A DNA stretch of 64,000 nt from Eumeta japonica (Eukaryota; Arthropoda; Insecta; Lepidoptera; Psychidae): positions 1 through 64,000 of the forward strand of contig BGZK01000751.1 in NCBI GenBank assembly GCA_005406025.1, read 5' to 3'. Of the stretch, positions 11,666 to 45,290 are shown piece after piece. Below the pieces are notes generated by a model. That model saw only the letters and a program-made list of their open reading frames with translations. It was not told where the DNA came from and did not search any database. Position numbers and translations under genes: made by a program. The stretch's first letter is position 1. Every line of letters begins with the position of its first letter.

Positions 11666-11705
11666 GACACCACAGACAACCACCAGCACAATGGCAGATG
11701 ATGAA
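11666..11705 (+). CDS. wupA: Troponin I exon 2: end of leader and start codon (MADDE)
   Basis: The acceptor TTTCAG ends at 11665. After 25 leader bases, ATG at 11691 opens MADDE, the conserved N-terminus of insect troponin I. The donor GTAAGG at 11706 leaves phase 0, which reads in frame into exon 3 or directly into exon 4. A second GT (GTGAGT at 11711) matches the donor consensus better but gives phase 2 and destroys the frame, so the upstream site is chosen. Coding starts at 11691. Confidence 0.93.
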
Positions 11706-13633: not shown

Positions 13634-13651
13634 AAAAAGCGTCTCGAGGAG
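13634..13651 (+). CDS. wupA: Troponin I exon 3: 18-nt microexon (KKRLEE)
   Basis: An excellent pyrimidine tract and TTCCAG precede AAAAAGCGTCTCGAGGAG, followed by donor GTAACT. It encodes KKRLEE in phase 0-0, so it can be included or skipped without shifting the frame between MADDE and AKKAKQAE. It sits where Drosophila has its N-terminal Pro/Ala-rich optional exon, so it is probably the reduced counterpart and probably optional. Optional use is inference. Confidence 0.82.
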
Positions 13652-14045: not shown

Positions 14046-14174
14046 GCGAAGAAGGCCAAACAGGCCGAGATCGACCGCAAGCGCGCTGAGGTGCGCAAGC
14101 GGATGGAGGAGGCCTCCAAAGCCAAGAAGGCCAAGAAGGGTTTCATGACACCGGAGAGGAAGAAGAAACTCAGA
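14046..14174 (+). CDS. wupA: Troponin I exon 4: basic N-terminal helix region
   Basis: 129 nt, 43 codons, phase 0-0. It begins [19 protein letters not shown] and ends [11 protein letters not shown], one of the most conserved stretches of insect troponin I. The highly charged helix forms the TnC-binding N-terminal part of the protein. The acceptor is CACCAG and the donor GTGAGT. Its GC content is far above the neighbouring introns, as expected for a constrained exon. Confidence 0.97.
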
Positions 14175-14538: not shown

Positions 14539-14662
14539 TTGCTGCTGCGTAAGAAAGCCGCCGAGGAACTGAAGAAGGAGCAGGAACGCAAAGCTGCGGA
14601 AAGGAGGCGTATCATCGAAGAGAGGTGCGGTAAACCAAAGAACATCGACGATGCAAACGAAG
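14539..14662 (+). CDS. wupA: Troponin I exon 5: start of the TnT-binding coiled coil
   Basis: 124 nt in phase 0-1, encoding LLLRKKAAEELKKEQERKAA and, after it, ERRRIIEERCG..NIDDANE plus the first base of the next codon. This is the long helix that enters the troponin I-T coiled coil. The donor GTAAAT at 14663 leaves one base (G), which every exon 6 variant completes with its first two bases. It reads open into the intron for some distance, but the in-frame exon 6 acceptors and protein similarity show where it ends. Confidence 0.97.
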
Positions 14663-14867: not shown

Positions 14868-14968
14868 ATACTATTAAGAGGGTTTGCAAAGAGTACCACG
14901 ACCGCATCGCTCAACTCGAGGACCAGAAATATGATCTGGAATACGTCGTTAAAAGGAAAGATGCCGAG
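14868..14968 (+). CDS. wupA: Troponin I exon 6, variant 1 (mutually exclusive)
   Basis: 101 nt in phase 1-0, encoding 34 residues once the split codon is completed: it starts DTIKRVCKEYHDRIAQLE and ends VVKRKDAE. It shares length, phase and the pattern (I/V)xxxYHxRIxxLExxKYDxE with the next three exons. Exactly one can be used per transcript in frame, as with the four exon-6 versions of Drosophila wupA. It lies in the coiled coil with TnT and so can tune muscle-type properties. Confidence 0.95.
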
Positions 14969-15342: not shown

Positions 15343-15443
15343 CGGCTCTCACGAGCATCATTACCGGTTACCACCAACGTATCACGAAGCTCGAGGAGGA
15401 GAAGTACGACCGCGAAATGGAAGTGGCGCGCAAAGAACTCGAG
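15343..15443 (+). CDS. wupA: Troponin I exon 6, variant 2 (mutually exclusive)
   Basis: 101 nt in phase 1-0, preceded by TTGTAG and followed by GTGTGA. With the split codon it encodes AALTSIITGYHQRITKLEEE then KYDREMEVARKELE, aligning without gaps to the other three versions. The donor GTGTGA is the weakest of the four, which may make this version dependent on a tissue-specific splicing factor (inference). Confidence 0.93.
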
Positions 15444-15893: not shown

Positions 15894-15994
15894 CGGAACT
15901 GCAGACCATATGCGCAATGTACTGGCACAGAATATACAACCTTGAAGGGGATAAAATTGATCTAGAGCGCGCGATTGAAATTAGAAAAATGGAG
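15894..15994 (+). CDS. wupA: Troponin I exon 6, variant 3 (mutually exclusive)
   Basis: 101 nt in phase 1-0 after TTTAG, with donor GTAACG. It encodes AELQTICAMYWHRIYNLEGD then KIDLERAIEIRKME. It keeps the shared (E/x)IxxxYxxRIxxLEGxK frame but is the most divergent of the four (YW for YH/YY, KIDL for KYDL). Length and phase are intact, so it is read as functional. Confidence 0.9.
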
Positions 15995-16190: not shown

Positions 16191-16291
16191 CATTGCTCAA
16201 GAGAATAATACAGGAGTATTATGACCGCATGTATATATGTGAGGGCCAGAAGTGGGATTTGGAACATGAAGTCAGGAAAAGAGATTATGAG
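16191..16291 (+). CDS. wupA: Troponin I exon 6, variant 4 (mutually exclusive)
   Basis: 101 nt in phase 1-0, with a strong pyrimidine tract ending CTATAG and donor GTATAT. It encodes ALLKRIIQEYYDRMYICEGQ then KWDLEHEVRKRDYE. The segment RMYICEGQKWDLE is nearly identical to one of the Drosophila exon 6 versions, so this is the most conserved of the four and likely a major muscle isoform. Confidence 0.96.
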
Positions 16292-18757: not shown

Positions 18758-18801
18758 ATTGCGGACCTGAACTCACAAGTCAACGATCTCAGAGGCAAAT
18801 T
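18758..18801 (+). CDS. wupA: Troponin I exon 7: end of coiled coil, start of inhibitory segment
   Basis: 44 nt in phase 0-2, encoding IADLNSQVNDLRGK and the first two bases of F. The acceptor is GTCAG and the donor GTAAGT. NDLRGKF leads into the inhibitory peptide that binds actin-tropomyosin. Only this exon follows all four exon 6 versions. Confidence 0.96.
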
Positions 18802-20202: not shown

Positions 20203-20344
20203 CGTTAAACCTACACTGAAGAAGGTGTCCAAATACGAGAACAAATTCGCGAAACTGCAGAAGAAGGCCGCCGAGTTCAATTTCCGCAACCAGCTCAAGG
20301 TTGTCAAAAAGAAGGAGTTCACCATGGAAGAGGAGGACAAAGAG
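20203..20344 (+). CDS. wupA: Troponin I exon 8: inhibitory and switch regions
   Basis: 142 nt in phase 2-0. With exon 7 it gives the inhibitory core GKFVKPTLKKVSKYENKFAK followed by LQKKAAEFNFRNQLKVVKKK and EFTMEEEDKE. The run GKFxxPxLKKV is the actin-binding inhibitory sequence of troponin I. The following amphipathic part is the switch and C-terminal region. The donor GTATGT leaves phase 0, shared by all the 3' exon choices: exon 9, the microexon at 21236, exon 10 and Pro/Ala exon 1. Confidence 0.97.
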
Positions 20345-20658: not shown

Positions 20659-20703
20659 GCTAAGAAAGCGGAGAAAGCTGATTGGGCAATCGGCAAGAAG
20701 TAA
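20659..20703 (+). CDS. wupA: Troponin I exon 9: alternative C-terminus A (ends WAIGKK)
   Basis: The acceptor CAACAG precedes 14 codons AKKAEKADWAIGKK and a TAA stop. It is used instead of exon 10 and gives a 205-aa protein. AATAAA at 20813-20818 and an A-rich tract from about 20841 give it its own 3' end. Confidence 0.92.
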   Translation, partial: AKKAEKADWAIGKK

Positions 20704-21235: not shown

Positions 21236-21253
21236 GGAGGCGCCGGGGGCAAG
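21236..21253 (+). CDS. wupA: Candidate optional 18-nt microexon (GGAGGK)
   Basis: CCACAG|GGAGGCGCCGGGGGCAAG|GTAAAC gives GGAGGK in phase 0-0, exactly compatible with exon 8 before it and exon 10 or Pro/Ala exon 1 after it. The GC-rich hexacodon stands alone in AT-rich DNA and is flanked by usable splice sites, although the pyrimidine tract is weak. It would insert a flexible Gly-rich linker before KKPDWSKG. I have no memory of a proven equivalent, so it is a prediction. Confidence 0.5.
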
Positions 21254-23636: not shown

Positions 23637-23705
23637 AAAAAACCGGACTGGTCGAAGGGCAAGCCAGGAGATCAGAAGGTAAAAGAGGAAGAGGTTGAGG
23701 CATGA
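23637..23705 (+). CDS. wupA: Troponin I exon 10: alternative C-terminus B (KKPDWSKGKPG...)
   Basis: The acceptor TTACAG precedes KKPDWSKGKPGDQKVKEEEV, EA and stop TGA (22 codons). It closely matches the usual Drosophila troponin I C-terminus, giving a 213-aa protein. Codon 14 (AAG, 23676-23678) is followed by GTAAAA, an internal phase-0 donor at 23679. Splicing there removes VKEEEVEA and the stop and can join the Pro/Ala exons in frame. The exon therefore may serve both as terminal exon and as internal exon of a heavy isoform. Confidence 0.94.
   Translation, partial: KKPDWSKGKPGDQKVKEEEVEA
23679..23684 (+). promoter_or_regulatory. Internal 5' splice site in exon 10
   Basis: AAG|GTAAAA keeps phase 0. 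The Pro/Ala exon at 33957 begins in phase 0 after ACAG, so the junction reads GDQK|EGDAASAQ. This site decides between the light (213 aa) and heavy forms if the extension is real. Confidence 0.6.
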
Positions 23706-23935
23706 AGCGTTTTCCAGTACACGAACATCACCCACGCCACTTCACTCATACCCTCGCGCAGCGCCGGCCAACTCACAATCACATCAGCCAAAAACAACTC
23801 CTTCACCACATAATATAAACTATAATATCATAATATACAAAACTACAGTCTACAAACATGTTTATTTGTATACAATGTTTTTTTGTAAGATATAATAATA
23901 TATGATTAATAAATTTAATTTTCTGTATTACACGC
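23706..23935 (+). terminator. 3'UTR and poly(A) signal for exon 10
   Basis: AATAAA at 23908-23913 about 200 bases after the stop. It ends the light exon 10 transcript. Confidence 0.65.
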
Positions 23936-25490
23936 CTGGTTTGTCGATGCATCATTTCCGCCCTGTGTCCACATCCCGTCCCTGATTGTAAGGAACCCGT
24001 ATTTATCATTGCAATTTGGAGTCGTCTCGTGTCACCCCAGCGTGCGCCCCGTTCGGACCTTTTGTTCAATTACCTGAAATGGGAGTGTTTTCGCTGAAAG
24101 AGATCCTTTTGTGCAAGCCTTCCTCCCAACCTAGAAGGATTAGCGAATAGAGATGTAGTCCCTGTCGTAATTTAACTCGTAATGCCCACTTGTGCTCACT
24201 AAGGCACGGTTACACTATGAAGTGATTAACATAGTCATTAGATGTATTTATTTCTTAATAGGTGATAAGAGAGACAGAGAGAGAGAGTTCCTTTTTGCTA
24301 CAATATTAGCAACAAGGTACCGGTAGGATGATTTACATATTCATTTAGTAATTAAATGCCAGTTGAAACTTCTGTACCGAACAAAAATTTGTCAGAATTA
24401 TATTGGTAAAATTTTTAGTATTATTGTAAGCAAAATTCCAGTATTTTTTTTTTCATCTCGACGCGAAGGTAATGTAACCATCGAGTTTGACACGGAACCG
24501 CCGATTGGAATATTTTCATAACCATTACAATACATGTGCCAAGATAGTTTAAGTGGAAATGTGCACTTTTTTGTTAAAATATGTCACGTATGTGTTCATA
24601 GAAAATTCCTTAATTTAAAACCTCACTGGTTCATAATTGAAATTGTAATAGGTGCTTATTATACAATTAGAGCTACAAATAAAAAAAAATATAATGCTCA
24701 GGTAGAATCAAAAGCAATGATACTTGAGTTTTTTTGCTAGTTTTTCTCGAAAGAAGACCGCCTTCCGAACGAGTAGTAAGAAGGTAGATTCTTAAAAAAT
24801 ATTAACACGAATGTTTAGTTGATATCTACGAAATACAGATATTAAAAAAAATGTTGCTGTATTTAATTTGTCGCTTAACAACAAATTTAACAAATAATAA
24901 TAATCGTCGAAAGTCTGATCTGTTGCAAACTGCTGCATCTTAGTTGGACAATGGAGTTACGCTTTAGATGCCAAATTGCGCTTGCGTCGTAGCGCTGGAA
25001 TCAAGATATTTAGCATAATTATGAGTTCTGTATTGACAATAGAGTCTGTATTCGTCATATATCGCATTTTGAGAATTCATATATGGTTCCTCATTACTGA
25101 GGAAGACTTACGTCTGCATTGCCACATAAAAGCCTAGGGTATTTATAAAATACGTTTGCAAACCGAGGGGCGATCTCTTAGTGTGACAACAGTGTGACAA
25201 GGTCTAAGAAAGTGAAATTTTACAATTGAAATAATACATATTTTAAAATATCAATATTTATTATTATTAAATGAACTATTTATAGAGGGGGGGTCTAGCT
25301 TTCGTGATGTCACATTTATGGCGGGTCGTAAAGACTGTGACATAGCGTGACGTTCGTGGCGTTCATAGTTTATGAACGGCCCCTAGAAAAAGATTTTTTT
25401 ACTTAGGATTTATTGGAACTGGAGATATTTTCGAATTGCTGTTTGTGGCTGCAATGACTACAAAGCGAGAACTCGACCACATTTTACATA
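23936..25490. other. Repeat-poor AT-rich DNA after the exon 10 poly(A) site
   Basis: Short GA-rich tract at about 24268-24288. No exon recognised. It would be part of a 10.3-kb intron in the heavy isoform. Confidence 0.45.
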
Positions 25491-25496
25491 TTTCGA

Positions 25497-27852
25497 GAAA
25501 CAGTCTCACCGGTCTCATTATGCACAATGATATGGCCCTCATGACTGTTATGAAAACTACTATGAGTTTTAGTACTAGCACACTCTGAAAACATGATACA
25601 TACTATTTTCGGCATGGCTTCTCAAACGATTTTTTAAATAACTCGCAAAAGTTATAATTTTTTGAATCAATATTTCTCAAAAACTAAAATAGGCAAAAAT
25701 ATGAAACTAACGCCAATCTTTGAAGAGTTTTTTTTAAAGAATATTATAGATTTTTTTTTTATATATTACTCCATGTTTTTAAATGGTCAAATAAATCGAA
25801 AATTATTTTGATATTTTTTTCCATGTTCTAATATTCTTACACTAACTAAAAAAAAATGTAGATATTCTTTAGGGGATGTTATTTTACTGCAAAAAGTTGG
25901 ATCGAAATCAAAAAAGCGCTTTTTGAGTTATGAAATAAATACGAAAAGTGGCTGACCCGGTTACTCAGCTTTGACATTATTCTCTATTTCAAGCTCAAAA
26001 CATTTTAGAATCTACCTATTAGTAAGCCTTTCGAGTTTAAAAATGTAAGCTTTTTACGTTTTTGTCCCACACGATTTAAAAATATTAACTTTCAAAATCT
26101 ATGGATACTTTTAATTTCTTCAATGAGAGGTTATGCAAAATTCTATTTTTACTAGTTACTTAAGTAATTGGATCATTATTATAATCTTGAAATTAAAAAA
26201 AATATTAATAATAAATATAAACTCAGAATTTTTCGAGTTATATACCTTATAGATATTACGTGTTATGAGAGGTGGCTGTCGTTTGTTGGCTATTGTCATC
26301 TTCACTGCGCAAACAATAAATACATTTTAACCTGTTGTTACGCATGCATGTAAAATATCGAGCGTTACATATTTTTGTTTTTATTCTCATAAAATCATTG
26401 ACAGTAAAACGTGTAGTGAAGTACAATTAAATTTCGTTTATTTTTCCTTTAACGTAATAACAATAAATCATGTTTGTAGAATGTAAAATATGCAATAAGT
26501 TTATTCACAAAGTTCCTGGTAAAATGAAAGTAATCATATCTAACGAAGATCAGATTATATAATATTTATACTAAGTATCCGATTGTAATTGGTGATATTT
26601 TGTGTGGAACGTGCCGATTGCTTCCATATAACACAGGAACTTCAGCCTTAGTAACTTTATCATCAGCACCTTCAACTTCAGCAGATTCAATTTCAATCGA
26701 AGACGAATCAAACGATCTTGATATTCCACATTTTGTTCCACACAAAATATCACCAATTACTATCGGATCCTTAGTATAAATATTATATAATCTCATCTTC
26801 ATCAGATTTGATTACTTTTATTTTACCAGGAACGTTGTGAATAAACTTATTACATATTTTACACTCTACAAACATGATTTATTGTTATTATGATATAGGA
26901 AACATAAATGAAATTTAATTGTACTTCATTGCACACTTTATTGTCAATGTTTTATAAGAATAAAAACCAAAAATGTCTAACGTTCGACATTTTACATGTA
27001 TAAAAACAGGTTAAAACGTGTTTATTGTTTGCGCGGCGAAGATGACAATAGCTAACAAACGACAGCCATCCGTCATTAAACATAACATGTATATGTATAC
27101 AACTCGAAAAAATCTGAATTTATATCTATTATTAATATTTTTTTAAAATGTCATAAAATTGTTATGAATTTATATCTATTATTAATATTTTTTTAAAATG
27201 TTATAAAAATTGTTCAATTACTTAAGTAACTAGTAAAAATAGGATTTTGCGTAACCTTTCATTGAAGAAATTAAAAGTATCCATACAGTTGGAAAATTAA
27301 TATTTTTAATTCGTGTGGCTCAAAATGTAAAAAGTTTATATTTTTAAACTCGGAAAGCTTAATAATAGGTAGATTCTAAAATGTATTGAGCTTGAAATAA
27401 AGAACAACGTCAGAGCTGAGTGAACTGGATCAGTCACTTTTCGTATTTTTTTCATAACTCAAAAAGCGCTTTTTCGATTTTGATTAAAATTTCTGCAATA
27501 AAAGTACATACCATAAAAAATGTCTACATTTTTTTTGGTTGGTGTAAGAATATTAAAACATGGAAAAAAAAATTAAAATGTTTTTTGATTTATTTGATCA
27601 TTTAAAATCTATAATATTCTCTAAAAACTCTTCAAAGATTGGCGTTAGTTTCATATTTTTGTCTTATATAGTTTTTGAAAAAAATTGATTCAATAAAATT
27701 ATAACTTTTGCGTATTATTTCAAAAATTGTTGGAAAATTCATGCCAAAAATAGTACGTATCATTTTTTCAGAGTGTGCTGATATTAACTCATACTAGTTT
27801 TCATAATAATCATGGGGGTTATTTCACCATACTTATACGGCGAGACTGTTTC
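25497..27852. mobile_element. Foldback element with about 1.1-kb inverted arms
   Basis: The left arm (about 25497-26610) and right arm (about 26735-27852) are diverged reverse complements, paired from GAAACAGTCTC outside to GTGTGGAAC/GTTCCACAC inside, with a loop of about 124 bp. Each arm carries a short frame reading outward-in, MFVECKICNKFIH.VPGK, with a CxxC pair. The right-arm frame runs, after a shift, into the loop as IEIESAEVEGADDKVTKAEV. It looks like an inverted duplication of the end of a larger DNA transposon including the start of a gene. The family is not identified. Confidence 0.75.
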
Positions 27853-27996
27853 CTTTATTTATCGCTTAATCGTCGCATAAAGTTCTTATAACTGACTGAG
27901 TTGTGGTTTGATTTCATACGTCGTAGAATATGTATAGAAAAACTAGGTATATAAAGTTTATTAATACTGTATTCCCTGTTTTCTCATTACAAAACA

Positions 27997-28075
27997 AAAT
28001 TCTAATTATTGACTTTTCATGAAAGTGTTATTGTACACTCTCATGAGAGGTCAATAATTAGAATTAGAATTAGCT
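27997..28075. repeat. Imperfect inverted repeat
   Basis: CTAATTATTGAC...CATGAAAGTGT, loop TATTGT, then ACACTCTCATG...GTCAATAATTAG. The outer 15-20 bp are perfect. Confidence 0.75.
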
Positions 28076-28099
28076 ACACGACCTGTTCTCGTACTACTC

Positions 28100-31000
28100 A
28101 TCAATAATAGTGAAAGATTTTGCATAGACAACAATAAAAGATCAATTAACAGTGTCAATCTTTGAATTGACACTCTTTTGGCGTAGGAGGGTAGGTACTA
28201 CGTAATATTCTATTTATAATTTTATCTGAACACTGTCCAATTTCACCGACAGATACAATTTCTGCGGTAAACTAGCTATAAGAAGTCTAACGTGATTATG
28301 TCCTATATTGTTTTCCCTTAAGCGAAACTGCCCTAATCTCCGTTCTTGGCAGACCTGTTATCTATCACAATATCTGAATTCTCACTATTAGTCTCGAGTA
28401 TTTTAAAGATTCGGTCATTTGATATTCCCCATTGATCATAAGATTTCCTGGCTCAAATTCTGAGGGATTTTTATGATGTACGGGAAGAAATGACAGTCAA
28501 AATTTTATTATGAAAGTATATTTAATTACATCTGTTAAAATGTTATGCTTTTACAAAAAAAAAATTAAATAGCGTACAATTGCTAACAAAGTATTTATTT
28601 TATTTGTTATAAAATTGTTAACGAAATATTTTCGATTATCTATTTGATATTGCTGTAATTTGATAATTCAATACATTAAAACTGCCATTTGAACTTTGAA
28701 AATAGTTGATATGATTGAAAGTCAATCAAAAACGAGGAAAAAATAGTCATGATTCTCAACATTAATATTTTTCTTCTATATAAGTCGCTCTTCCACACAT
28801 ACAAAATTTCATCAAAATTAATGACATTTGAAAAAGGTACAGAGTTTAGTGTCAACATTTTTGCAAGTTTTCATATTGAAGATTCAAATACAAATTTATC
28901 TAATATCTTAATGCTAAACCTTAACCTCATGAAAACATTAAAACTGCTTATAATGGTATAAAATACTTTTAAAAAGTATTACATAACATTTTATAATATA
29001 AAGTATATTTTATGGTTGTAAGTAAATTTATTCTATTAGTTATGGTAAGGTATATTATATCGTTATAAATAATATATTTTGAGGCGGTTAATGTTTAGAA
29101 TTAAAATATATCACTAAAATTTATTTTAATAACTAGAATTCCTGAACGGATTTATTTAAATTTTTCTTTTAAAATATGTTAAAAATTATCAATGAAATTA
29201 AATATATTGACATAATATATTTGATTCCGTTGATAAATTTAATCAAATCGTTTTAATCGAACTGCTTTGATCGAATCTAATATGATCATTGATTATATTC
29301 CCAATAAAATTTCATGTTATCATTATAAAGTTTGTTGTGTTATGATATCTCGAAATATAATTTACAACTTCTGATTGTAAGTTATATGTATTTTATTAAA
29401 ATGAATAAATCACCTTTATTTAATTTGTTGGTGAATCATTTTTACCGACTCTCATGAATTTAAAATGAGTCTAAATTAATTGGTGAAAAAGACAATAAAC
29501 ATACAAACTCACAAAATTTCACTTTCTAAAGTGTACGGTGTACGGTGTACAAAACTGTAAGGGAGTCTAATAGTAGGTGTGACCCAATGGGAAGTCGAGC
29601 TATTTAGTTCCATTGCCAACTTCAAGGATTGAGTATTTAGCCGAAGGCGTTCTCCCTTCATCATTTTCTTTAGGCGAGCTATATTTGTCACTTGAGAACT
29701 CATTTATTGTTTCGATTATATCGGTTTTGTGACAAATCTGGCCAGCCAATTGTTATCTCAGCTTGCTAAATTACATAGAGTTCGATTGCATTAATACTTT
29801 GCTTGGTTTATTTATCAATTTTAATGTATAAGAGATTCCCTTGAATAATTTTTAGTGTTACGTACAGAAAAGCAAAAAAGAACTTTTATAGTTTCATTCT
29901 GTTCTTTTGGTCTATTCGTTTGTGACACCTATATATATATTTATCATTCCTGTCAAAACTATCCAGTCTCTTGTCTTGTATGTATCGTCATACAATAATG
30001 CAGAGACATTATGGAAGAAAAATGTTCAAAGGGTGACTTTCTGTACACAACATCGAGGGAAGAAAATTTATTTCATTCATTTGGTACGTGGTATGCCCTG
30101 GGATAGGGACGTAAAAATGAATTAAAAGGTTTTACGTGAATTTTTTCTGAGGAGTATATTTTGCGGCTTATTAGTTTCCAAAGTTGTTAATTTTGTGTCT
30201 TCCTCTTCCATATCGATGCTGATTTGAATACAAATAGTAATGCGAACGTATTGTAAATTAAAGTTTTCAAATAGCGGTGATGTGATATTCGTTTTACTTA
30301 GTGTAATGGTAATTTACACATCGTTTCGTCTGTTGGTACGGAACCGTAGATGCGGGAGTCAGTCTTTCAGCTTGGCCGGTATCATTACTATGGCATCTAG
30401 AGCAACCTTCTGTGAACTCTTCACCATCGGTGTCGAATTTCATGAGATGCGTGTCAAACGGATAGGACTCAACTGTAGATTTTTACTTCAAACTTAAGGT
30501 ATTGTTAGCAATGACTAAACCAAAGTTAGGCTAAAGAGCATTTTCAAATGCTATTTTAGATAAATGAGATTTTCGTTCTAACTTTTTTTCTAACTGCAGT
30601 GTTTCATCTAGGTAAAGATTTTCTTTATCAACTTAGACAGAGAGAGAGAAAGAGAGAGAGAGAGAGATACGTCCATCTCAAAGAATACTAAAATAATAAT
30701 GATATATATAACGATAGGTATATTATATATTGAAAGAGTAAAAGACTAAGAATGATTAGCTAAAAAAAGCGAAATACTTTCTGTACGTCGACGACCAAGT
30801 AATTCTTCCGCCGTCAACGTGCGAGCTATGGTTGATGGTAACTAAAATGAATGATTCTGTTAAAAAAAGCGTGGTCAAGATTAAGGTCATGGTGTTTCAA
30901 ACAAGCAAAAGCATGACTAAATGTGATAACGTACCTATAAAAGGTAAGAGATTTGGACAAACGACAGACTTTTTAATACATAAGTACTTCGTTTACAAAT

Positions 31001-31480
31001 AATGGAAATAAAGTGAATGGGGCTTTGCTTGCTATTACGAATAGAAAAAATATCTCACGACAAGAGTGTTTGATAATAAAGTCGTAGTTCCTGCTCTTAT
31101 GGTGGTGAAAGTTGGATATAGCAGGAGGAAAACCAGAAAAAGTGCGAATATGACTCGCACTCTCAGGGTTTACAGGTATGTAGATATTTCTTTCATCAAG
31201 AGTTTCGAAGATAATTGCTGTTTTTCGATAACGATACTCGAAAGATATTGGTCCTGAGAAGTTTTTTTGACTGATTTGGCCGCAAAGCTAAGCCTTTTGG
31301 AGAACATAGTGATATAAGCACCTCATATTTTGTTTACATTTCATTAAGAAGTAGATTATCTGTAGTAAACCATTTCCCTAACTTAACGATAGCTTTGTTA
31401 AAATTTTTAGAAGCAGGCTGCTGTCTTTTAGTTTTGAATAACAAAAAAGTATCATTTGCAAATAGTACTATTTCATGAAC
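28100..31480. other. AT-rich intergenic or intronic DNA, no exon recognised
   Basis: A (GA)n tract lies at about 30638-30669 and a small hairpin (GTGTCAAT...ATTGACAC) at about 28151-28173. No coding similarity was seen. Confidence 0.5.
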
Positions 31481-31488
31481 ATCCATAC

Positions 31489-31532
31489 GGATCTGTAGTC
31501 CATATCAGTGTACTCATATGGACTACAGATCC
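31489..31532. repeat. Perfect 17-bp hairpin with a 10-nt loop
   Basis: Arm GGATCTGTAGTCCATAT and its exact reverse complement around CAGTGTACTC. Confidence 0.9.
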
Positions 31533-31588
31533 AGAGTATTTTATGCTATTGACATCACCCTTTAAACTTTGTTACTCTATAGTGACGT

Positions 31589-31594
31589 ATATAT

Positions 31595-31665
<71 letters not shown>
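31589..31665. repeat. (TA)n microsatellite
   Basis: About 75 bp of nearly pure TA alternation. An open frame over it (IYIYIY) is an artefact. Confidence 0.95.
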
Positions 31666-31667
<2 letters not shown>

Positions 31668-31907
31668 CCCAATTTAAGCCCAAGTTGCTTGCAAAACCCC
31701 ATAAAAATTATACAGTCGCTTAGGAAATTAGCGTATTCAAACAGATACATGGGCAGAAAAGAGTCTTACAAATGAGGGGCACAGGGAAAAATCATGCAAT
31801 GTCACTAAAACAATGAACAGAGAAATTGTTAAATTAACATTTTGATCCTTGAAAAATGTTATAAAAGAAACTTAAATAAAACAAAGACATATTAATTAAT
31901 GAAGAAG

Positions 31908-32988
31908 CCAAGAGCATGTTTACGAAAACACGTATGAGAGAGATAATGAGAGCCTCCAATCACATCTCGTAAACCTGACGTATACTAGTGATACAAACTA
32001 CTCTTTGTGAAAGCCTACTAAAAGCTTAAAGCGCCTGAAACAACAGATTAAAAACAGAAAATGAGACCTGGGCTCGCTAGTGAGAGAGCTTGCACGTATT
32101 CCAATCACCTACGTAAAGTATTTCAACTACTTCCTAGTAATAACCAACACCCCGACTATAAAATTGATAAATACCTCAATTGTCCTACTCGAATGTGCTT
32201 ACCATATAAATACGTGACACCTCATGAATTAAGGTGAGATATTTTAAAGCTTTAAGAAGACAAATGCCCTGGCTATAATCTGGTGGATGCTACTCTCTTG
32301 AAACATCTTGCTAGAAAAGGGCTAATGCTCAAACTTGCAAACTTTAATGCATATTTAAGACTGTCCTTCTACCCAAGCCAATGGAAAATAGCCCAAGTAA
32401 TAATTATACTGAAACAAGACAAACTAGCTAAGGATGTTGCATTATACATACCGATAAGTTTCCAACCGGTAGTTGGAAAATTAGGAGAAAAAGTTATACT
32501 AAGCGAAATGCAAAAATATCTAGCAGAGATAATACCAACTCACCAGTTTAGCTTCAAAGAGGGCCATGGTACCATTAATCAAGGGCACCGCTTGGTTGAC
32601 GTCATTTCTAGGGCGATGGAAAGCAAATCATACTGTTGTGCAGCCTTTCTGGACATCAGTCAAACATTGGCCAAAGTATGGCATAGTGGACTACTCTATA
32701 AAATTAAGAAACGCTACATCTGTTCTTTCTCATTATAAAATCTTACCGAGAAAATAGATTCTACGAAGACAAATATAAAACTGACACATTTCAAATGTAC
32801 GAAATTAAGTCTGAAGTGCCACAGGGTAACATACTGGGACCAGTTATGTATCTACTGATAAAGTCATCAAGTTCTTTAATACAATTAAATCCAGCTTTCC
32901 GCTTTCATTTTCGCATGCATAGAGATAGAACTCATTCCGTTATTTTTTATTTCGATCGACCTATTATTTCTAGTCCCAGTCCTCTTCT
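31908..32988 (+). mobile_element. LINE fragment (Jockey-like reverse transcriptase), internally deleted copy A
   Basis: The frame has reverse-transcriptase landmarks: SQWKIAQVIIILK, YIPISFQPVVGKL, THQFSFKEGHGTI, AAFLDISQTLAKVWHSGLLY (block A; the second acidic site of the usual FDKVWH is lost) and VPQGNILGP. After GPVMYLL the sequence jumps to noncoding tail, so the YxDD block is missing. It is highly similar to copy B in opposite orientation, including the same deletion junction. It is dead on its own. Confidence 0.85.
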
Positions 32989-32999
32989 TTAATAGTCTT

Positions 33000-33956
33000 A
33001 GTATAAGCTGTTTACGGCACTCACAAACAATTTTTGATAAATATTTTCAAAGTATAAACCCAAACGTTTGCAGTCTTATTATATTCATATAATACATTAA
33101 TAAGTTTCAATAAAGTAATATGTATATATACTAATATATACTTTTCTTATGTACATAATATAATAAATTTTGCAGAAATAAATTAAATATTGAATAAAAC
33201 ATTATGAAAAAATATTTATTTTATACTATTATCCTTTGAGATAAAAACTTGTGAGTGATTATTCTGGACAAACTTTCAGATATTCACACAAACACGAATT
33301 ATAAAATAACTATTTATGATCATTTATATTTAGCTGCAACAAAATTATATTTAGAATCATAGACCAATATTAAAATCTTATTTACGTGAAGGCATCGATT
33401 AAAATTTATCTCATTAAAGTGATGAGAAATACCGAGAACAGGAGATTAAAAAGCTTAAGAAGTAAGTGGATGGAATGGTGCGGTAAGTTTTCAATTCCAA
33501 GACTATATTGCTTCGCTAGTTTAGGAATATATTTATGCGGTCGATTTACCTATGGTAAGCAATATATTAATTTATATAATTAACCATTTTTTTTTCCAAA
33601 AAATGAAATAAATTGCTTGCTTAGCTTTTCAATACAACAGTTTCTTCTCTAATAATAATATTGAGTAAAAGCTTTTTTTATTTAACGGCATGATTCCATT
33701 GTGCTTTTGGGTTAATGCGTAACAAAAATAAGTTGCATAATGTACGTTTATATTGTCCAGTTCTTGCGCTACTTTATTTTATAAGCTAGGTACCAATCGT
33801 CAGCATGATATGACTAGTCTTTTTCAGGCTTCTAAGCTTTTATGCTAAACTTTGTTACAGATAAAATGTTTATTTTTCACAAGAGTGAAGCTTGGCGATT
33901 GCTTATTAAAATAATTGAAATTTAAATTTTATTATTATATAAGATTTAAACGACAG
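33000..33956. other. AT-rich stretch before Pro/Ala exon 1
   Basis: A short frame near 33.39-33.58 kb has no recognisable similarity. Nothing else is seen. Confidence 0.45.
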
Positions 33957-34295
33957 GAAGGAGACGCGGCTAGTGCACAAGCTGAAGGGGCACCCCCGGC
34001 TGAAGGGGCACAGCCAGCTGAAGGCGCACCACCGGCAGATGGTGCCCTCCAACAGAAGGGGCACCCCCACCTGAAGGGGCACCTGCAAGTGAAGGGGCTC
34101 CACCAGCCGAAGCGGTACTCCACCCACAGCGCTGCAACCACCTGCAGAAGGGGAGAGCTCCACCAGCTGCAGCAGCTCCACACCCGCAGAGGGCGCACAA
34201 CCTGCGCCCGGGCGGTGTCCAACCGGTCGAAGGTGCACCCGTTGCACCCTCGGCGGAAGCTCCTGCCGCGGCACCGGCGGCTCCTCCTGCGGAAG
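33957..34295 (+). CDS. wupA: Pro/Ala-rich exon 1 of the proposed heavy troponin I (frame-broken as given)
   Basis: After CGACAG the frame opens EGDAASAQAEGAPPAEGAQP in phase 0, continuing AEGAPPADGA. The PAEGA-type repeat then jumps between frames: PPTEGAPPPEGAPASEGAPP, TPPTALQPPAEGE, APPAAAA, TPAEGAQPAPG and GVQPVEGAPVAPSAEAP. It ends PAEG across GAA G|GTTGTT. I count five frame changes with a net need of +1 base to reach the phase-1 end. Such shifting while the amino-acid theme persists points to assembly indels in a GC-rich repeat, not a dead exon. AATAAA at 34314 could make it an alternative last exon. An alternative acceptor at 33961 would give phase 1. Confidence 0.68.
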
Positions 34296-35637
34296 GTTGT
34301 TTTAATATTATTTAATAAACCTCAAACTTTTTTCATAGTTAAATTATCTAACAAGTTCTATATACGTATAGAAATAAAATACAAAATAAGCATATTATAG
34401 TGTAATTGAAAAAAATAGACAAATCTGAGAAATATTTTTATAATTCATACTTTGAATAATATTATTTTTATATAATTCTAGCTTTTCACTATAATTGATG
34501 TATATACATTGATAACGATGATGATGATGTATATATATACATACACATGTAAAATGAACAATCAGCTAACAATTTCCTAGAAACTAACTATAAGCTGCTA
34601 TACTGTAATTATACAAATTGATAATAACCGATAAAATATCAAATAGTATGTATATTATATGACTTACAATTTAGAGCTACAAATGATACGTGGCCTACAC
34701 AAAGATGGATGTATAGGCGATACCCCCCGACGCGTATCGGAACATTTACGTGCCTCTAATGAGCACTTACCGTTATGCGTGTTTCACGATGGCCTAAGTA
34801 CTATTGAGGTTCAAATTTGCACATAAATTGAGACTGTTGTGAACGATCTAAACGCTATATTCATTATATAGACTGCTTTGCTATATTAATCATAATATTT
34901 TTAACTTCCCCGCTAAGAAAATTAAAAATTTTCTAAAATTTTCGGGAAGTTATTGGTTTCACCCCATTTTGCAAAAATCGACTTCTCATCAGATCTCGAC
35001 GTTCTGAGGGTCTAGGAAGCTTGCCTGATCATCCCTGAGATGATGTCCGTATGTCTGTGTGGATGTGTGTGTTTGTGTGTGTTTGTGTGTGTTTGTGTGT
35101 GTGTGTGTGTGTTGTGTGTATATGTGGATGTATATAAACCTCTTATAACTTTTAAACGGTTTGACCGAATCGAGCTTACTAAACGGCGTTCCAAAGAGTT
35201 TCCCCAAACTTAGATTTCCTGAAAGTTTGGGTCGATTTGGACCGGCAGATTTTGAGAAATTTTCAAAACAAACTAAAAAAAAAATTTTTTAAAGTGGTTT
35301 TTTTCAAAATAACTTTAAAATGGTTAGACCGATCAATTCCAAAATCTAATAAGCTCTCTGTAAAAACACGTCGATTGCCGCAAACCGGGTCAAAATCGGT
35401 TGATTCGTTTGTGAGAAATCGTTGTCGAAAGAAATCGAAAAACCGTTTTTTACTCAAAATCGTCAATCTCGTATATTTTCGAGTGTTTTGAACCTCGAAA
35501 TATGGAAGTTTCAGGGTTAATTGTAGTAACCTATTTTTTTTAAAGGAACAACCACATTCTGATAAACAACGTATTATCTTTTCTTGTATGCTGTCCGATT
35601 TTTGTTTTGCGGTGTTTGATTTTATACAACATTACAG
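34296..35637 (+). other. Intron between Pro/Ala exons 1 and 2, filled with repeats
   Basis: About 34900-35520 resembles the tail of a non-LTR retrotransposon: phrases such as TTATAACTTTTAAACGG and GGTTTGACCGAATCGAGCTT, and several AAATCG-rich lines. It carries a (GT)n microsatellite at 35050-35125. Confidence 0.55.
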
Positions 35638-35724
35638 GGGCACCCGCGGCACCCGCACCGGCCCCCGCCCCCGCACCGGCCGCTGCGCCGGCAGAAGGAT
35701 CGCCGCCTGCTGCACCAGCGGAAG
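35638..35724 (+). CDS. wupA: Pro/Ala-rich exon 2 of the proposed heavy troponin I
   Basis: 87 nt in phase 1-1. A good pyrimidine tract and ATTACAG are followed by GG GCA CCC..., encoding APAAPAPAPAPAPAAAPAEG then SPPAAPAE and the G of the next codon, with donor GTAATT. Low-complexity Pro/Ala coding sequence with intact frame, splice sites and strand, in AT-rich surroundings, is unlikely by chance. The extension is known from Lethocerus troponin-H; assignment to this gene rests on context. Confidence 0.75.
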
Positions 35725-36371
35725 GTAATTATACAGAGTTAATAATTTTGACACTGAGCCGTGGAGGCGCGTGATAAGCGCGCTGTATTCGAATGATAAG
35801 GTAACGAGTACCTTCCTTGTCTACAGGCGGATTGATCAAGCGTTTTTAACTCTAATAAGATTAATCCTGTCTCTGTGCTTTAGAGAACATAATTATCCGT
35901 CGGTTATGGTAATATGCAATTGTTTACGAGTATAAAGTTTGAAGTATATGAAAAAAAATAAATTAAATTTAAAAATTACTATTTTTTTTTGGAATAATTT
36001 TTTCACTTGTCTTTTTAATTACTTATCTGCAGTATTAAAAATGAATTTAAAGATTTTGTGGAAGTTTTAGATACCTAGTTAATGACGCACTTATGATATT
36101 ATTAATTCCAATGTCATTTGTCATAACCTGACGTTATGGTGTTGATGACGATTCGCCAAAATCTGATGGTTGAGTTAAAGGAAAAGAAATATAATTACTT
36201 ACATTAATATAAAAAAAGTTATTGACATACAAGCTTGTGTACATAATTGGCAGTTGAACCTTTTAGACATCGCCCTGGAAAATATAGATTTTATTCAAAA
36301 AATTACTTTAGCTTTTGCAACTTGTTGAAATTATTTTTCATTATCATTCTCAAGGAGTTTGTATTATTTAG
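35725..36371 (+). other. Intron between Pro/Ala exons 2 and 3
   Basis: AT-rich. No feature recognised. Confidence 0.5.
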
Positions 36372-36464
36372 GTGCTGTGTCTGCTGTTGCCCCTGCGACT
36401 GCGCCCGCGCCTGCGCCTGCGGCCGAAGCATCAGCGCCTGCGCCTGCTGCGCCACCAGCTGAAG
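36372..36464 (+). CDS. wupA: Pro/Ala-rich exon 3 of the proposed heavy troponin I
   Basis: 93 nt in phase 1-1. The acceptor is TATTTAG and the donor GTGACA. It encodes (G)AVSAVAPATAPAPAPAAEAS then APAPAAPPAE, and again ends GAA G, exactly like exons 2 and 4 of the cluster. The shared phase and shared terminal PAEG suggest that these exons arose by duplication and can be skipped singly without frame loss. Confidence 0.75.
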
Positions 36465-38349
36465 GTGACAGACTCAATAATCAATTTAAACTAAAAAAAA
36501 TATAAAATTAGTTATGTGAGCTAAACATGTTTACATGCATTATAACGACTGGTAGTAAAGCATTCATGACAAAATCCGATCAGGTATTGCGTACAAAGTA
36601 TTTTAAAACGACATCGTATCACTTATCGATGCATTAGTAACGATTATAAAATTTGAACAACATATTTTGAATGCTTAATTATTCGTTGCATTTTATATGC
36701 GATATTATATATTCAATGTAACTAATCGATCGTGGCCGTTTATACATTCTAACACTTGATGCGATAAAATGTACTTTGAATCAAGTGGTTATGTCTATTT
36801 ACTTACATAGTAATATACTGTAGATATACGATCAAATATAACTTTATAAGTATTTATTCAATTTCACTATAAATACAAAACCGCAATTGGAATAATGTCA
36901 CTCGCTTTCCATTTATTTTAGTTTTTACAAATTTTCTCGTAGGTGGCATCTCAGTATTTCTACCAGATATGTTTTTTTTTGCACTCATTTATTTAGTTTT
37001 ACATACTATCATACTTTTTTTTATCGTACATTCCACTTTACATACATACTTCTATATACGTTTGTGTTGACTAAGCTTTACTCCTATTGGGAAATTAAAA
37101 TAAAAACAGGAGGCTTTAATAACATACGCAATACAATGAATATTTGAATATTAATTTATTTTCATTACGTTTTAAAAACACTGCACTACAGTGGTATAAA
37201 TCAAAATTTCCTGAGCTACTTATACTATTGTAACTATAAACTATAAAGTTCCAATAAAAAAATATGAGCATTGTTTCACAAAAATGCCAAAAATAAGTCA
37301 ATTTGAAAAATAAATTCAGAGCCTTTGTTGTGCTATTGTATTCGAATCGAATGTCCGTTACCTTGGTTTATACATAAATAAACAATAATAGGCTTATTTA
37401 TTAATTATTTTTCCAACTCGGGTCCGTTGAGTTGAAATAAAATATTGGAAGAAAGGTACAATTATATAAAAAGTAAACTTAAACTAATGGTAATCGATTT
37501 TAATAATACAATTCTTAATTTAATTATAATTATATCATGAATATTATTTCACTAAAAGATAATTAAGCTTAGAAGACCATTATAAAAAAGGAAACACAAT
37601 TGCAATAAAATAACAGATTATTGAGCTATTGCATAACTTTTATCGCGGGCTTTGAGCACGGTGACCGAATCAAGAAATTCTGTAACGAAAATAAAACCTA
37701 ACACCCCCCCCACTCCGCCTACCATGTAGCTCGGCCGAGCGTTCGCTTAACGTGTATGTATATGGTACGACTGTACGAAGCTTGCAAGAAACGAGACGAG
37801 CTGCTCCGAAATCGGACGTATACGTAAGCAGCTTTTTGTGAGAAAGGATATAGGTGTATAGGTATCTATCATATCTTTATAATGCTACACTCACCGCATG
37901 TGCCCCGTAAGTATACATGTAGGTATATATGTATACATAGGTGTACCTATGTACAATAGTGAATAGCAGTTGCCGGTGAATAGCTATACGCGTAAAATTT
38001 GTATATAAAGTGCTTTAAATATGAATAAATAAACTGCATTTGTTAATGAAGAAAGTGATTAGAAACTTGAATTAATATAAAAAAAATACTACATAAATAA
38101 ATAATTATATTTGTATAAGTTGATAAAAAATGCTATGCAATAGCTTTACCGCGGCAGTCCCCGAGTGCCACACGTTTTTTAAAAACTGTGACAAACATTG
38201 AAAATGAGTGAATATATTTAATTAGTGAAATCTAGCCTTATATAATTATTCTATCATTGAAATTAGTTTGTTAAGTCAACTGATAGATAATTAGGGATAA
38301 AGTTTTACTCAGAAATTGATTTCGAATTATCAATTAATTTTAACATCAG
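36465..38349 (+). other. Intron between Pro/Ala exons 3 and 4
   Basis: AT-rich with a GC-richer patch near 37690-37830 that has no coding look. No feature recognised. Confidence 0.5.
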
Positions 38350-38502
38350 CACCCGCACCCGCACCCGCGCCAGCTCCCGCCCCCGCGACAGAAACCGCGC
38401 CCGCCGCCGCGCCTGCGCCCGCCGCCGCGCCTGCGCCCGCCGCCGCGCCTGCGCCCGCACCTGCGCCCGAGGCGGCTCCGGCACCGCCGCCACCCGTTGA
38501 AG
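38350..38502 (+). CDS. wupA: Pro/Ala-rich exon 4 of the proposed heavy troponin I, ending at a GC donor
   Basis: 153 nt in phase 1-1 after AACATCAG. It encodes repeated AP and AAP units, including a perfect 18-nt tandem (APAAAP) three times at 38397-38450, then EAAPAPPPPVE and the G of the next codon. The 3' junction GAAG|GCATGT fits a GC-AG donor at the same GAA G position as the sister exons. If it is not spliced, the frame runs on through AT-rich codons to a stop at 38604-38606 (ending KCNELF). Further 3' exons are expected if the GC donor is used; I could not identify them. Confidence 0.72.
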
Positions 38503-38606
38503 GCATGTATTTTTTGAATATTTATTGTTTTTTCAACAATTTATTTATTTCGCGAATAAAAGATTGCAATGCACCTCTCACGAACAAGTGTAACGAATTG
38601 TTTTAA

Positions 38607-40114
38607 GCAGTTTTATTAACATTAAAGACATTTCAATCCTTAATTTACGTTATTGTTATGGGTTTCTACTTCTTTTATAATTTATTAAAAAAGTTACAAA
38701 AATTTTCGAGATGTAGTCCAAATAAAAGGAAGATTGTAAGTTTATTTTTTGAGAAATATATTCTTAACGCTTTTTAAAAAAAACTCAGTATTATGAAAAA
38801 ATATTGAAAAATATGTAAAATATGTATTAGTTCCCATTTAATCTGCATTCATATCTCATAATTTGGTGATTTTCGGCAATTTTACTAATTAGGTGTTAAT
38901 AAAATCATTTAAAATTCATTATTCATGCAAGATCATTATTTAAGAATCATTTTATTTCAGAAGTCAAATGAAATGTACTTACACATTTATATTTTGCATT
39001 TTTGAATTTTTTATAACCAATTTGAAGTATCTAATGTGCTAAATCACCGAATTTTACGTAAAAAAAACCATACAATCATGAATGAATTCGACATTAAATG
39101 GTTGGGTATAGTTTATCTAATAAATCATCAAAAACGAAATTATGTTACCGGCACATTTATCTTTCTAGCATCGGCGTAACGTCCGCATACAATCAGCGTT
39201 GGTGAAAAATATGAAGTGAAGAGCCGAATGTCATCATAACGTTTTCAGTGGTCTTACAGAACTGCGTATTCTTGAATGTTTTTGAATTTTTGCGAATCGC
39301 ACGTCTTGTAAGCGAAGTGGAATCAATTTAATATTTACGTTTTGTATTTTTTTTAAGTGCAGTTAAATGAAAATAAGTATAGAGATTTAATAAAAATATC
39401 GACACATGTTTAAAGTTTTTTTTCGTAATACCTATTCAAAGTACACTATAATGATTATTTAGGAATTTTCTTTTTTGATATCTCTTTAGGTATGTCCCTT
39501 TAATTAAGTGGAATCAGTTATGATTCCTTGGTTGGTGATTTGATGGAAAGTTTTAAAAATTACTATTGTGCCTTGCCAGAGCTGGGAAAGGAAAATAAAA
39601 TAATATTAAAATTCGTATAGTTATGCGATTATAAATATCATTTCATTCATTTTTAATTACTTTTTAACCCTCTATAGTGTTTTTAATTAACACCAAACAG
39701 CGCAAATGCGTCACGTAATAATTATTTTATTAAACGAATTTCCATGACAGTTCTACATAATTTAAATAGTTTTTAATGATGCTCAGTATTAGTTTATTGA
39801 AAATTATTGAAACTACTTTATATGCTCTCTTTCCTTCTATATTTTATTATAAATTTGAACCAAATCGGTAAAGACTTGGACTCTATAAGAAATACACAGA
39901 CTAACCTTAATTATTATATATAAAGAATATTCTACATTAAACTAGTGCTAATTTAAATCATGAAGATTTTGGCTAATTCAAATCAATGAAGTGCAGGGAA
40001 AACAAATATGTCGCATAAGATTATCAAATCAAAATATGGCTCAGTCCTTACAAAGACTTGCATAAGGATATCTGATACAATATTGAGAAACTCTTTATGA
40101 CAATCTCAACGTAG
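38607..40114. other. AT-rich DNA, no exon found
   Basis: Searched by eye for a phase-1 Pro/Ala exon to follow the GC donor at 38503. None was recognised. Confidence 0.45.
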
Positions 40115-44027: not shown

Positions 44028-45290
44028 CTATACATGAAGTCTCCTCCTTAGAAAGAAAGTCGAGAGCGAAACCAGGATAAAAACGAGAATGGGACCAGAA
44101 CTGAACATGAAAACAGGACCAGGGTTGAAATGGAATGATGGGTTGGGATCAGGATCAATAGTGTGATTGGGGTCGAAATCAGGAGTAGTATCGGGATCCA
44201 TTTCTAGAAGAGGACTGGGACTAGAAATAATAGGTCGATCGAAATAAAAAATAACGGAATGAGTTCTACCTCTATGCATGCGAAAATGAAAGCGGAAAGC
44301 TGGATTTAATTGTATTAAAGAACTTGATGACTTTTATCAATTAGATACATAACTGGTCCCAGTATGTTACCCGTGGCACTTCAGACTTAATTTCGTATAT
44401 TTGAAATGTGTCAGATTTATATTTGTCTTCGTAGAATTTATTTTCTCCGTAAGATTTTAATAATGAGAAGAACGAATGTGGTAGCGTTTCCTTAATTTTA
44501 TAGAGTAGTCCACTATGCCATACTTTGGCCAATGATTGACTGATGCCCAGAAAGGCTGCACAACAGTATTATTTGCTTTCCATCGCCCTAGAAATGACGT
44601 CAACCAAGCGGTGTCCTTGATTAATGGTACCATGGCCCTCTTTGAAGCTAAACTGGTGAGTTGATATTATCTCTGCTAGATATTTTTGCATTTCGCTTAG
44701 TATAATTTTTCTCCTGATTTTCCAACTACCGGTTGGAAACTTATCGGTCTGTATAATGCAACATCCTGAGCTAGTTTGTCTTGTTTCAGTATAATTATTA
44801 CTTGGGCTGTTTTCCATTGGCTTGGGTAGAAGGACAGTCTTAAATATGCATTAAAGTTTGCAAGTTTGAGCATTAGCCCTTTGCTAGGAAGATGTTTCAA
44901 GAGAGTAGCATCCACCAGATTATAGCCAGGGCATTTGTCTTCTTAAAGCTTTAGAATATCTCACCTTAATTCATGAGGTGTCACGTATTTATATGGTAAG
45001 CACATTCGAGTAGGACAATTGTGGTATTTATCAATTTTATAGTCGGGGTGTTGGTTATTACCAGGAAGTAGTTGAAATACTTTACGTAGGTGATTGGAAT
45101 ACGTGCAAGCTCTCTCACTAGCGAGCCCAGGTCTCATTTTCTGTTTTTAATCTGTTGTTTCAGGCGCTTTAGCTTTTAGTAGGCTTTCACAAAGAGTAGT
45201 TTGTATCACTAGTATACGTCAGGTTTACGAGATGTGATTGGAGGCTCTCATTATCTCTCTCATACGTGTTTTCGTAAACATGCTCTTGGT
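44028..45290 (-). mobile_element. LINE fragment (Jockey-like), internally deleted copy B
   Basis: Inverted, highly similar counterpart of the copy at 31908. It keeps SQWKTAQVIIILK, YRPISFQPVVGK, THQFSFKEGHGTI and AKVWHSGLLYKIK, broken by shifts. After the shared deletion junction it retains a longer tail (44028-44206) of degenerate CCTGATCCC / TTTCGACCCC repeats, which is absent from copy A. Homology with copy A begins at CCAAGAGCATG on both. Confidence 0.85.

Follow-up and report, generated by a model that had tools for sequence, protein, structure and literature searches.

A lepidopteran troponin I gene with a predicted heavy isoform carrying a C-terminal Pro/Ala tail

Can a lepidopteran troponin I (TnI) gene bypass its usual stop codon by splicing and continue into Pro/Ala-rich exons lying more than 10 kb downstream? 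This question is raised by a 64,000-nt window of Eumeta japonica contig BGZK01000751.1 (positions 1 to 64,000, forward strand), the whole stretch of DNA analyzed here. Published accounts, in their accessible parts, describe heavy TnI (troponin-H), with its Pro/Ala tail at the C-terminus, from winged insects outside Diptera. Sequence comparison makes it likely that the gene studied here also has a heavy, troponin-H-type isoform, in which an internal donor of exon 10 would be joined to a downstream Pro/Ala cassette.

The gene in the window is a lepidopteran TnI gene. It has four copies of exon 6, a microexon of 18 nt and a choice of three C-terminal ends. Its exons are as follows.

11691..11705, + strand, start exon (MADDE) with ATG and donor gtaagg, part of the in-frame core assembly
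13634..13651, + strand, 18-nt exon (KKRLEE) with AG/GT sites, in frame
14046..14174, + strand, TnI exon ending KKKLR, core assembly
14539..14662, + strand, TnI exon LLLRKKAAEEL...DDANE, core assembly
14868..14968, + strand, exon 6 copy 1 of 4, 101 nt, in the phase common to all copies; the overlying open reading frame (ORF) matches Pfam PF00992
15343..15443, + strand, exon 6 copy 2 of 4, 101 nt
15894..15994, + strand, exon 6 copy 3 of 4, 101 nt
16191..16291, + strand, exon 6 copy 4 of 4, 101 nt
18758..18801, + strand, exon 7, core assembly
20203..20344, + strand, exon 8, with a phase-0 donor and a PF00992 match
20659..20703, + strand, exon 9, alternative C-terminal exon AKKAEKADWAIGKK-stop, an ending common to Colias P0008 and Iphiclides P0097
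21236..21253, + strand, 18-nt microexon (GGAGGK)
23637..23705, + strand, exon 10, light ending KKPDWSKGKPGDQKVKEEEVEA-stop, with an internal phase-0 GT donor after 23678

The core was complete: whichever of the four exon-6 copies was used, it read in frame for 191 aa. We take these copies to be mutually exclusive. Best matches of the four assemblies were lepidopteran TnIs at 94-98% identity, and two stop-free pieces matched PF00992 in the Pfam scan. The KKRLEE exon, present in fetched model P0007 and absent from P0005, is probably optional. At the microexon position, GGAGGK was the commonest insert among fetched proteins (13, for example Galleria P0125), followed by GGAGAK (12).

Two modes of ending can be proposed for this gene. 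The internal donor of exon 10 reads AAG/GTAAAA (the slash marking the exon edge), and the 27 nt from there to the end of the exon contain the stop codon. In the light mode, translation would run to the stop of exon 10 itself and the transcript would finish there, for a product of 213 aa, or 219 aa with the microexon. In the heavy mode, use of the internal donor would remove the last nine codons of exon 10 including the stop, and the four Pro/Ala exons would follow, completed by a coding end of 11 nt, to give ~434 aa, close to the ~430 aa proposed in the initial annotation. We infer that a choice is made between these two modes. The four Pro/Ala exons are listed below.

33957..34295, + strand, Pro/Ala exon 1 (PA1), AG acceptor before 33957 and GT donor after 34295; phase 0 in and phase 1 out if read through
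35638..35724, + strand, Pro/Ala exon 2 (PA2), AG acceptor before 35638 and GT donor after 35724; phase 1-1
36372..36464, + strand, Pro/Ala exon 3 (PA3), AG acceptor before 36372 and GT donor after 36464; phase 1-1
38350..38502, + strand, Pro/Ala exon 4 (PA4), AG acceptor before 38350 and GC donor AAG/GCATGT after 38502; phase 1-1; ends PPPPVE

All these sites had been proposed in the initial annotation and were found again here, as was the phase 1-1 structure of PA2, PA3 and PA4, each ending GAA G, when coordinates and phases were re-checked. The phase-0 opening of PA1 likewise fits the donor after 23678. Two donors seem weak by eye, gttgtt of PA1 and the GC site of PA4, which counts against the model. 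Both strands of the window were scanned for stretches of 20 codons in which Pro+Ala reached 55% or more. The scan recovered PA1-PA4 on their own and on the opposite strand, together with two further GC-rich stretches, at 10314-10391 (- strand) and 17399-17458 (+ strand, intronic), while each of 20 resamplings, drawn from a first-order Markov model rather than as exact dinucleotide shuffles, contained none. GC content was 0.69-0.85 in the Pro/Ala exons versus 0.24-0.33 in their flanks. Because this both-strand scan placed no Pro/Ala exon at the gene's N-terminal end, the tail is assigned to the C-terminus. We considered, and dropped, one more exon near 33420-33482; its overlying ORF had no Pfam match, and no such exon was seen in homologues.

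Support for the junction came from homologues, sampled as 228 fetched proteins (120 of 432 and 120 of 136 matches listed). Among the 123 that bear KKPDWSKGKPGD[QA]K, 89 continue with VKEE, and 27 of the 34 other endings show a butterfly join from exon 10 to Pro/Ala sequence; these are database gene models from ten species, several of them isoforms of one gene, and do not amount to 27 independent cases. The join reads KPGD[QA]K, followed by a Pro/Ala tail of 14-40 residues. Splice sites, phases and butterfly models thus agree, at the level of sequence, on a stop bypassed by splicing within one gene, and the stop-skipping heavy TnI put forward in the initial annotation gains support from the ten species. 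A point against is that, among the 228 fetched proteins, drawn from the matches listed, none from a named moth had a Pro/Ala tail in frame; that of Choristoneura P0002 carries a tail read in another frame. The mapped gene suggests that moth annotations miss the heavy isoform.

With all three donors in phase 0, exon 8 or the microexon might instead supply the join to the tail. We consider such an origin very unlikely: the 27 butterfly tail models run through KKPDWSKGKPGD[QA]K, though the count required this motif, and no lepidopteran tail lacked it among the matches listed with tails of more than 18 residues and more than 25% Pro+Ala. Still less probable is that the Pro/Ala exons form a separate transcript outside TnI with its own promoter. 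The cassette (33957-38502) does lie 10.3 kb from exon 10, which would suit such a transcript, but it is entered in phase 0, the butterfly models from ten species have the same junction, and the predicted end ASA (below) also points to TnI. Moreover, no other cellular Pfam family exceeded the threshold in between; in the 10 kb preceding the cassette, where the scan took in 5 of the 74 ORFs with 45 aa or more, the sole above-threshold match was a reverse transcriptase. The gene upstream of the Pro/Ala exons is TnI, and no tropomyosin match was obtained in the 15 different ORFs scanned, which make up a minor share of those in the window.

Joining exon 10 to the cassette, as we prefer, meets a difficulty in PA1, which, when read in phase 0, stays rich in Pro and Ala for no more than ~30 codons. 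The best Pro/Ala path changes frame five times in PA1 (at each of four penalties: 4, 6, 9 and 12) versus zero times in PA2, PA3 and PA4. These changes span ~160 nt (34047-34207). The first half of PA1 is an 18-nt tandem repeat, with repeat arrays ending at 34122; two of the five breaks lie inside the arrays and three outside (34156, 34181, 34207). For the first exon, the sites and phases of the initial annotation stand; the frame changes, which that annotation did not mention, correct it, and because of all five the assembled sequence cannot encode an intact tail. Assembly error is the likeliest cause, and decay is possible. With decay, the cassette would be a relic of an ancestral heavy isoform, frame-shifted in PA1 in this species or haplotype, and the full tail would not be made. 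This is conceivable given five breaks within so short a segment, three of them beyond the repeats, and given the short fly and butterfly tails in models, which show that shortening happens. We nevertheless regard a relic as unlikely. PA2, PA3 and PA4 have undamaged frames and splice sites and share the high GC content of PA1; read as Pro/Ala, PA1 itself can still be entered in phase 0 and left in phase 1; and two of the breaks fall within repeat arrays, a usual site of assembly error.

The initial annotation gave no terminal exon after PA4, and one candidate was selected here.

39169..39179, + strand, candidate last exon for the heavy isoform, coding segment CATCGGCGTAA (ASA-stop), 11 nt, with AATAAA at 39389

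This exon is likely, on sequence grounds, to be the last one of the heavy form, giving ...PPPPVE-ASA-stop. It was chosen from 21 short candidates in a broad scan because it lies nearest to PA4 and equals the ending of Vanessa cardui (...VQASA). It is also the sole acceptor on the + strand followed by Ala-(Ser/Thr/Ala)-Ala-stop, for which first-order Markov resampling gives 0.040 expected occurrences per 25.5 kb. Hemipteran heavy TnIs P0011 and P0046 end VEAAA, and the predicted C-terminus PPPVEASA resembles PPMVEAAA of Planococcus. Another candidate of the broad scan, ET at 55516, has an acceptor as pyrimidine-rich as that of 39169. A stricter first scan, for phase-1 last exons downstream of PA4 with at least four residues and at least 40% Pro+Ala, had yielded solely PPIRP (59970) and YPRDVPP (42702), two poor candidates that were rejected. 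We also discarded a link to Rbfox through the GC donor of PA4, which contains GCATG; this pentamer occurs 61 times in the window versus 77 expected. The Rbfox1 motif is given as (U)GCAUG, and the fibre-type-specific wupA event tested was Bruno1-dependent and unaffected by Rbfox1 knockdown, according to the accessible part of PMC8742874.

The predicted heavy protein has ~434 residues, with a tail of ~229 residues and 70% Pro+Ala; this tail is probably disordered and extended. By analogy with published troponin-H, the protein would reside on the thin filament of flight muscle. In the accounts accessible, troponin-H is reported to aid filament lattice order, and its binding to glutathione S-transferase is reported from the fruit fly; the role of the Pro/Ala tail of flight-muscle troponin is described as still open in the accessible part of PMC5581462. 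Published troponin-H runs at 75-80 kDa, and a heavy TnI would be expected in flight muscle as a band near that size reacting with antibody MAC143. Since ~434 residues would correspond to roughly 45 kDa by our own estimate, anomalous migration would need to be assumed, a point against the heavy reading.

Comparison with known systems placed the predicted protein among heavy TnIs. Troponin-H of Lethocerus, as the initial annotation had stated, and of other non-dipteran insects combines an N-terminal TnI with a Pro/Ala-rich C-terminal part, to judge from the accessible parts of PMC6726838, PMC5581462 and PMC13322953; no Lethocerus protein was among the matches listed. A repeating GESGAGKT-like motif is named for heavy troponin in the accessible part of PMC5581462. 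None of the six window frames contains G.SG.GK, nor does any of the 228 fetched proteins, including hemipteran and beetle heavy TnIs; from these sequences, the repeat does not look like a defining feature of heavy TnI. Hemipteran heavy TnIs (for example, Halyomorpha P0046) differ in a conserved non-Pro/Ala segment, EEDLWLFL..., and two beetle heavy TnIs in another; neither was found in the window, where tblastn at E up to 1 gave, beyond the TnI and Pro/Ala exons, weak scattered matches only. Five hemipteran and two beetle tails contain 26-49% Pro+Ala (counted from exon 10 on) versus 70% here (counted after exon 10). Butterfly tailed TnIs such as V. cardui isoform X5 share the microexon position, the exon-10 join, the kind of tail and, in Vanessa, the ASA end, but their modeled tails of 14-40 aa fall far below the ~229 predicted here, which counts against the long tail. 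Dipteran troponin-H corresponds to tropomyosin isoforms 33/34, a number also found as a database name. It likewise has a Pro/Ala-rich C-terminal tail on a thin-filament protein, as described in the accessible parts of PMC4657346 and PMC5581462, with the difference that the tail is on tropomyosin there and on TnI here.

The protein type is already known: heavy TnI has been reported from winged insects in general, and databases contain hemipteran and beetle sequences. In the literature searched, we found no description of a long lepidopteran Pro/Ala cassette with a GC-AG last intron, and none of the papers listed dealt with a heavy TnI gene from Lepidoptera; the protein may well be in print (Peckham 1992, Iwamoto 2013 and Herranz 2005 lie outside the search). 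Gene models of three flies have tails of 7-8 residues. Together, the models suggest that tail length may differ strongly between lineages, so that comparison with flight mode becomes possible. A tentative and rather doubtful extension is that the lepidopteran cassette consists of modular, repeated phase 1-1 Pro/Ala exons, variable in number and length between lineages and missing from the named moth models examined, with the fly tails as a remnant. If true, tail length would be an evolutionary dial open to comparison with wing-beat mode and with lattice order; the 7-8-residue fly tails would be what was left once a long tail arose on tropomyosin. Lepidopteran flight muscle is commonly regarded as synchronous, and for this group the mapped gene supplies precise junctions that can be sought. 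Manduca flight muscle is reported as synchronous in the accessible part of PMC7432240.

We rebuilt the troponin I (TnI) gene exon by exon on the + strand of the window, which has 33% GC. Every one of four exon 6 copies gives a 191-residue in-frame core. Compared with 228 fetched proteins, these cores match lepidopteran ones best, at 94–98% identity, which makes the insect very likely a lepidopteran. The gene encodes three C-termini, in exon 9 (AKKAEKADWAIGKK), in exon 10 (KKPDWSKGKPGDQKVKEEEVEA) and in a cassette of four Pro/Ala exons, PA1 to PA4.

Features of the TnI gene
14868-14968, +, exon 6 copy, 101 nt
15343-15443, +, exon 6 copy, 101 nt
15894-15994, +, exon 6 copy, 101 nt
16191-16291, +, exon 6 copy, 101 nt
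21236-21253, +, 18-nt microexon (GGAGGK) before exon 10
23637-23705, +, exon 10, with an internal phase-0 GT donor after 23678
33957-34295, +, PA1
35638-35724, +, PA2
36372-36464, +, PA3
38350-38502, +, PA4

The initial annotation had proposed a heavy, troponin-H-type TnI made by joining these Pro/Ala exons to exon 10, and its exon coordinates and phases proved correct when rechecked against the sequence. Scanning the window for 20-codon stretches in which Pro and Ala make up 55% or more picks out the four exons, on both strands, plus two further GC-rich stretches at 10314-10391 (−) and 17399-17458 (+). In 20 Markov resamplings such a stretch never arose, which puts the four segments well beyond chance. 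They have 69–85% GC, and their flanks 24–33%.

Exon 10 would have two competing fates: reading to its own stop (light form), past which an AATAAA was read by eye at 23908, or splicing from the internal donor to PA1, ~10.3 kb on. The predicted splice sites, their phases, the cassette and a candidate end are all visible in the sequence. The predicted heavy product has ~434 residues with a tail of ~229 (70% Pro+Ala), values that are approximate because PA1 is broken. Published excerpts give troponin-H an apparent mass of 75–80 kDa, larger than expected against the roughly 45 kDa estimated here.

A point absent from the initial annotation is that no single frame of PA1 reads as Pro/Ala from end to end. 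Dynamic programming with frame-shift penalties of 4, 6, 9 and 12 placed five shifts in PA1 at every penalty (near 34047, 34115, 34156, 34181 and 34207); PA2, PA3 and PA4 needed no shift. The resulting path enters PA1 in phase 0 and leaves it in phase 1, as splicing requires; the plain phase-0 frame has no stop and encodes Pro/Ala for ~30 codons, then becomes Lys/His/Arg/Leu-rich. Tandem repeat arrays occupy the first half of the exon (18-nt unit, 33980-34112; 71-nt unit, 33984-34122) and contain two of the five breaks, the other three lying past their end. Assembly error is the likeliest cause of the breaks, real decay of the exon a possible one.

The coding sequence of PA4 closes with PPPPVE and one extra base, followed by a GC donor. 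At 667 nt past PA4, ctttctag/CATCGGCGTAA gives ASA-stop in phase and is a candidate terminal exon of the cassette, likewise absent from the initial annotation and the nearest to PA4 among 21 short terminal-exon candidates in a broad scan of 38.5–64 kb. On the + strand of the window, no other site fits the pattern of AG and then, in this phase, Ala-(Ser, Thr or Ala)-Ala-stop; the − strand has one such site. The expectation for the 25.5 kb past PA4 is 0.040 matches, and none fell in the first 700 nt of 300 resamplings. Vanessa cardui isoforms likewise end in PPVQASA, and the heavy TnIs of Planococcus and Halyomorpha in VEAAA. An AATAAA lies downstream of the candidate end, at 39389. The PA4 donor itself, GCATGT (38503-38508), contains the Rbfox-type pentamer GCATG, which is not enriched in the window.

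The homologues comprised 228 distinct readable proteins (P0001–P0228) from three protein searches (best 120 of 432, best 120 of 136 and 17 of 17 matches). The motif KKPDWSKGKPGD[QA]K was present in 123 of them, followed by the light end VKEE in 89 and by another continuation in 34. Of these 34, 27 are Pro/Ala tails of 14 to 40 residues from ten butterfly species: Vanessa cardui, Maniola hyperantus, M. jurtina, Pararge aegeria, Brenthis ino, Danaus plexippus, Papilio machaon, Zerene cesonia, Pieris rapae and Leptidea sinapis. The Danaus tail ends in AAEGNFLK, which looks like read-through into the intron at a GAA G/GTAA boundary. Among the matches listed, no named moth had an in-frame Pro/Ala tail. 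The remaining seven come from Choristoneura, Hermetia, Glossina, Culicoides, two fleas (EKAEVEA, EKTEVEA) and one jgi protein. The Choristoneura tail (P0002; 69 residues, Arg/Leu/Pro/His-rich) appears to be the same kind of exon read in the wrong frame. In the dipteran models the tails have only 7–8 residues (Hermetia P0003, EAAPETPA; Glossina P0004, EHAPETPA; Culicoides P0164, EGEEAAA), depart from exon 10 at the same residue and are possibly remnants of the heavy tail that tropomyosin carries in flies.

Aphids, a planthopper, a stink bug, a mealybug, a spittlebug and beetles have heavy TnIs whose tails run to 160–315 residues (counted after EEEDKE, at least 26% Pro+Ala). Hemipteran tails (P0011, P0014, P0042, P0046, P0227 and others) share a conserved non-Pro/Ala segment of ~60 residues, EEDLWLFLREAVTQANPLSIDELL..., and all 17 matches to the stink bug tail region were hemipteran. 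Two beetle tails (P0028, P0065) carry a different non-Pro/Ala segment; neither the hemipteran nor the beetle segment was found in the window. The boldest reading is that the tail is a modular cassette whose length differs greatly from one lineage to another, flies keeping remnants of 7–8 residues; we hold it less likely than not, because its basis is automatic gene models that may be incomplete. The name tropomyosin-1, isoforms 33/34, occurs in databases for the planthopper heavy TnI; P0042 and P0228, Pro/Ala-tailed TnIs, bear it, and P0028, also Pro/Ala-tailed, is named skin secretory protein xP2. P0042, P0228 and P0028 are probably misnamed owing to the tail. The Periplaneta model P0001 repeats much of the TnI core in tandem, either a genuine feature or an error of the gene prediction.

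Excerpts of PMC6726838 describe troponin-H as a TnI with a Pro/Ala-rich C-terminal half. According to excerpts of PMC5581462, an antibody to the extension reacted in all winged insect groups examined, tropomyosin carries the extension in Diptera, the fruit fly extension binds glutathione S-transferase, and its enzymatic removal in bumblebee comes at the expense of lattice integrity. Judged by sequence, the gene has the testable features of a heavy TnI, an unbroken PA1 frame aside, and is a further example of an already known kind. The GESGAGKT-like motif ascribed to the extension in the same excerpts is absent here and was not treated as defining because all 228 fetched proteins lack it too.

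The 10 kb intron before PA1 holds a decayed reverse transcriptase stretch (PF00078, 32256-32735, +) and, ~0.5 kb before PA1, a short exon-like stretch (33420-33482) with GGTAAGT-type donors and no Pfam match. The Pfam scan covered 15 different ORFs of the window. By eye, a near-identical translation to the reverse transcriptase stretch lies on the other strand near 44.6–44.9 kb (44572-44942, −), where ORF 44572-44850 had no Pfam match. Mariner-like transposase remnants lie at 51678-52645 (−), with HTH_48 above and DDE_3 below cut-off.
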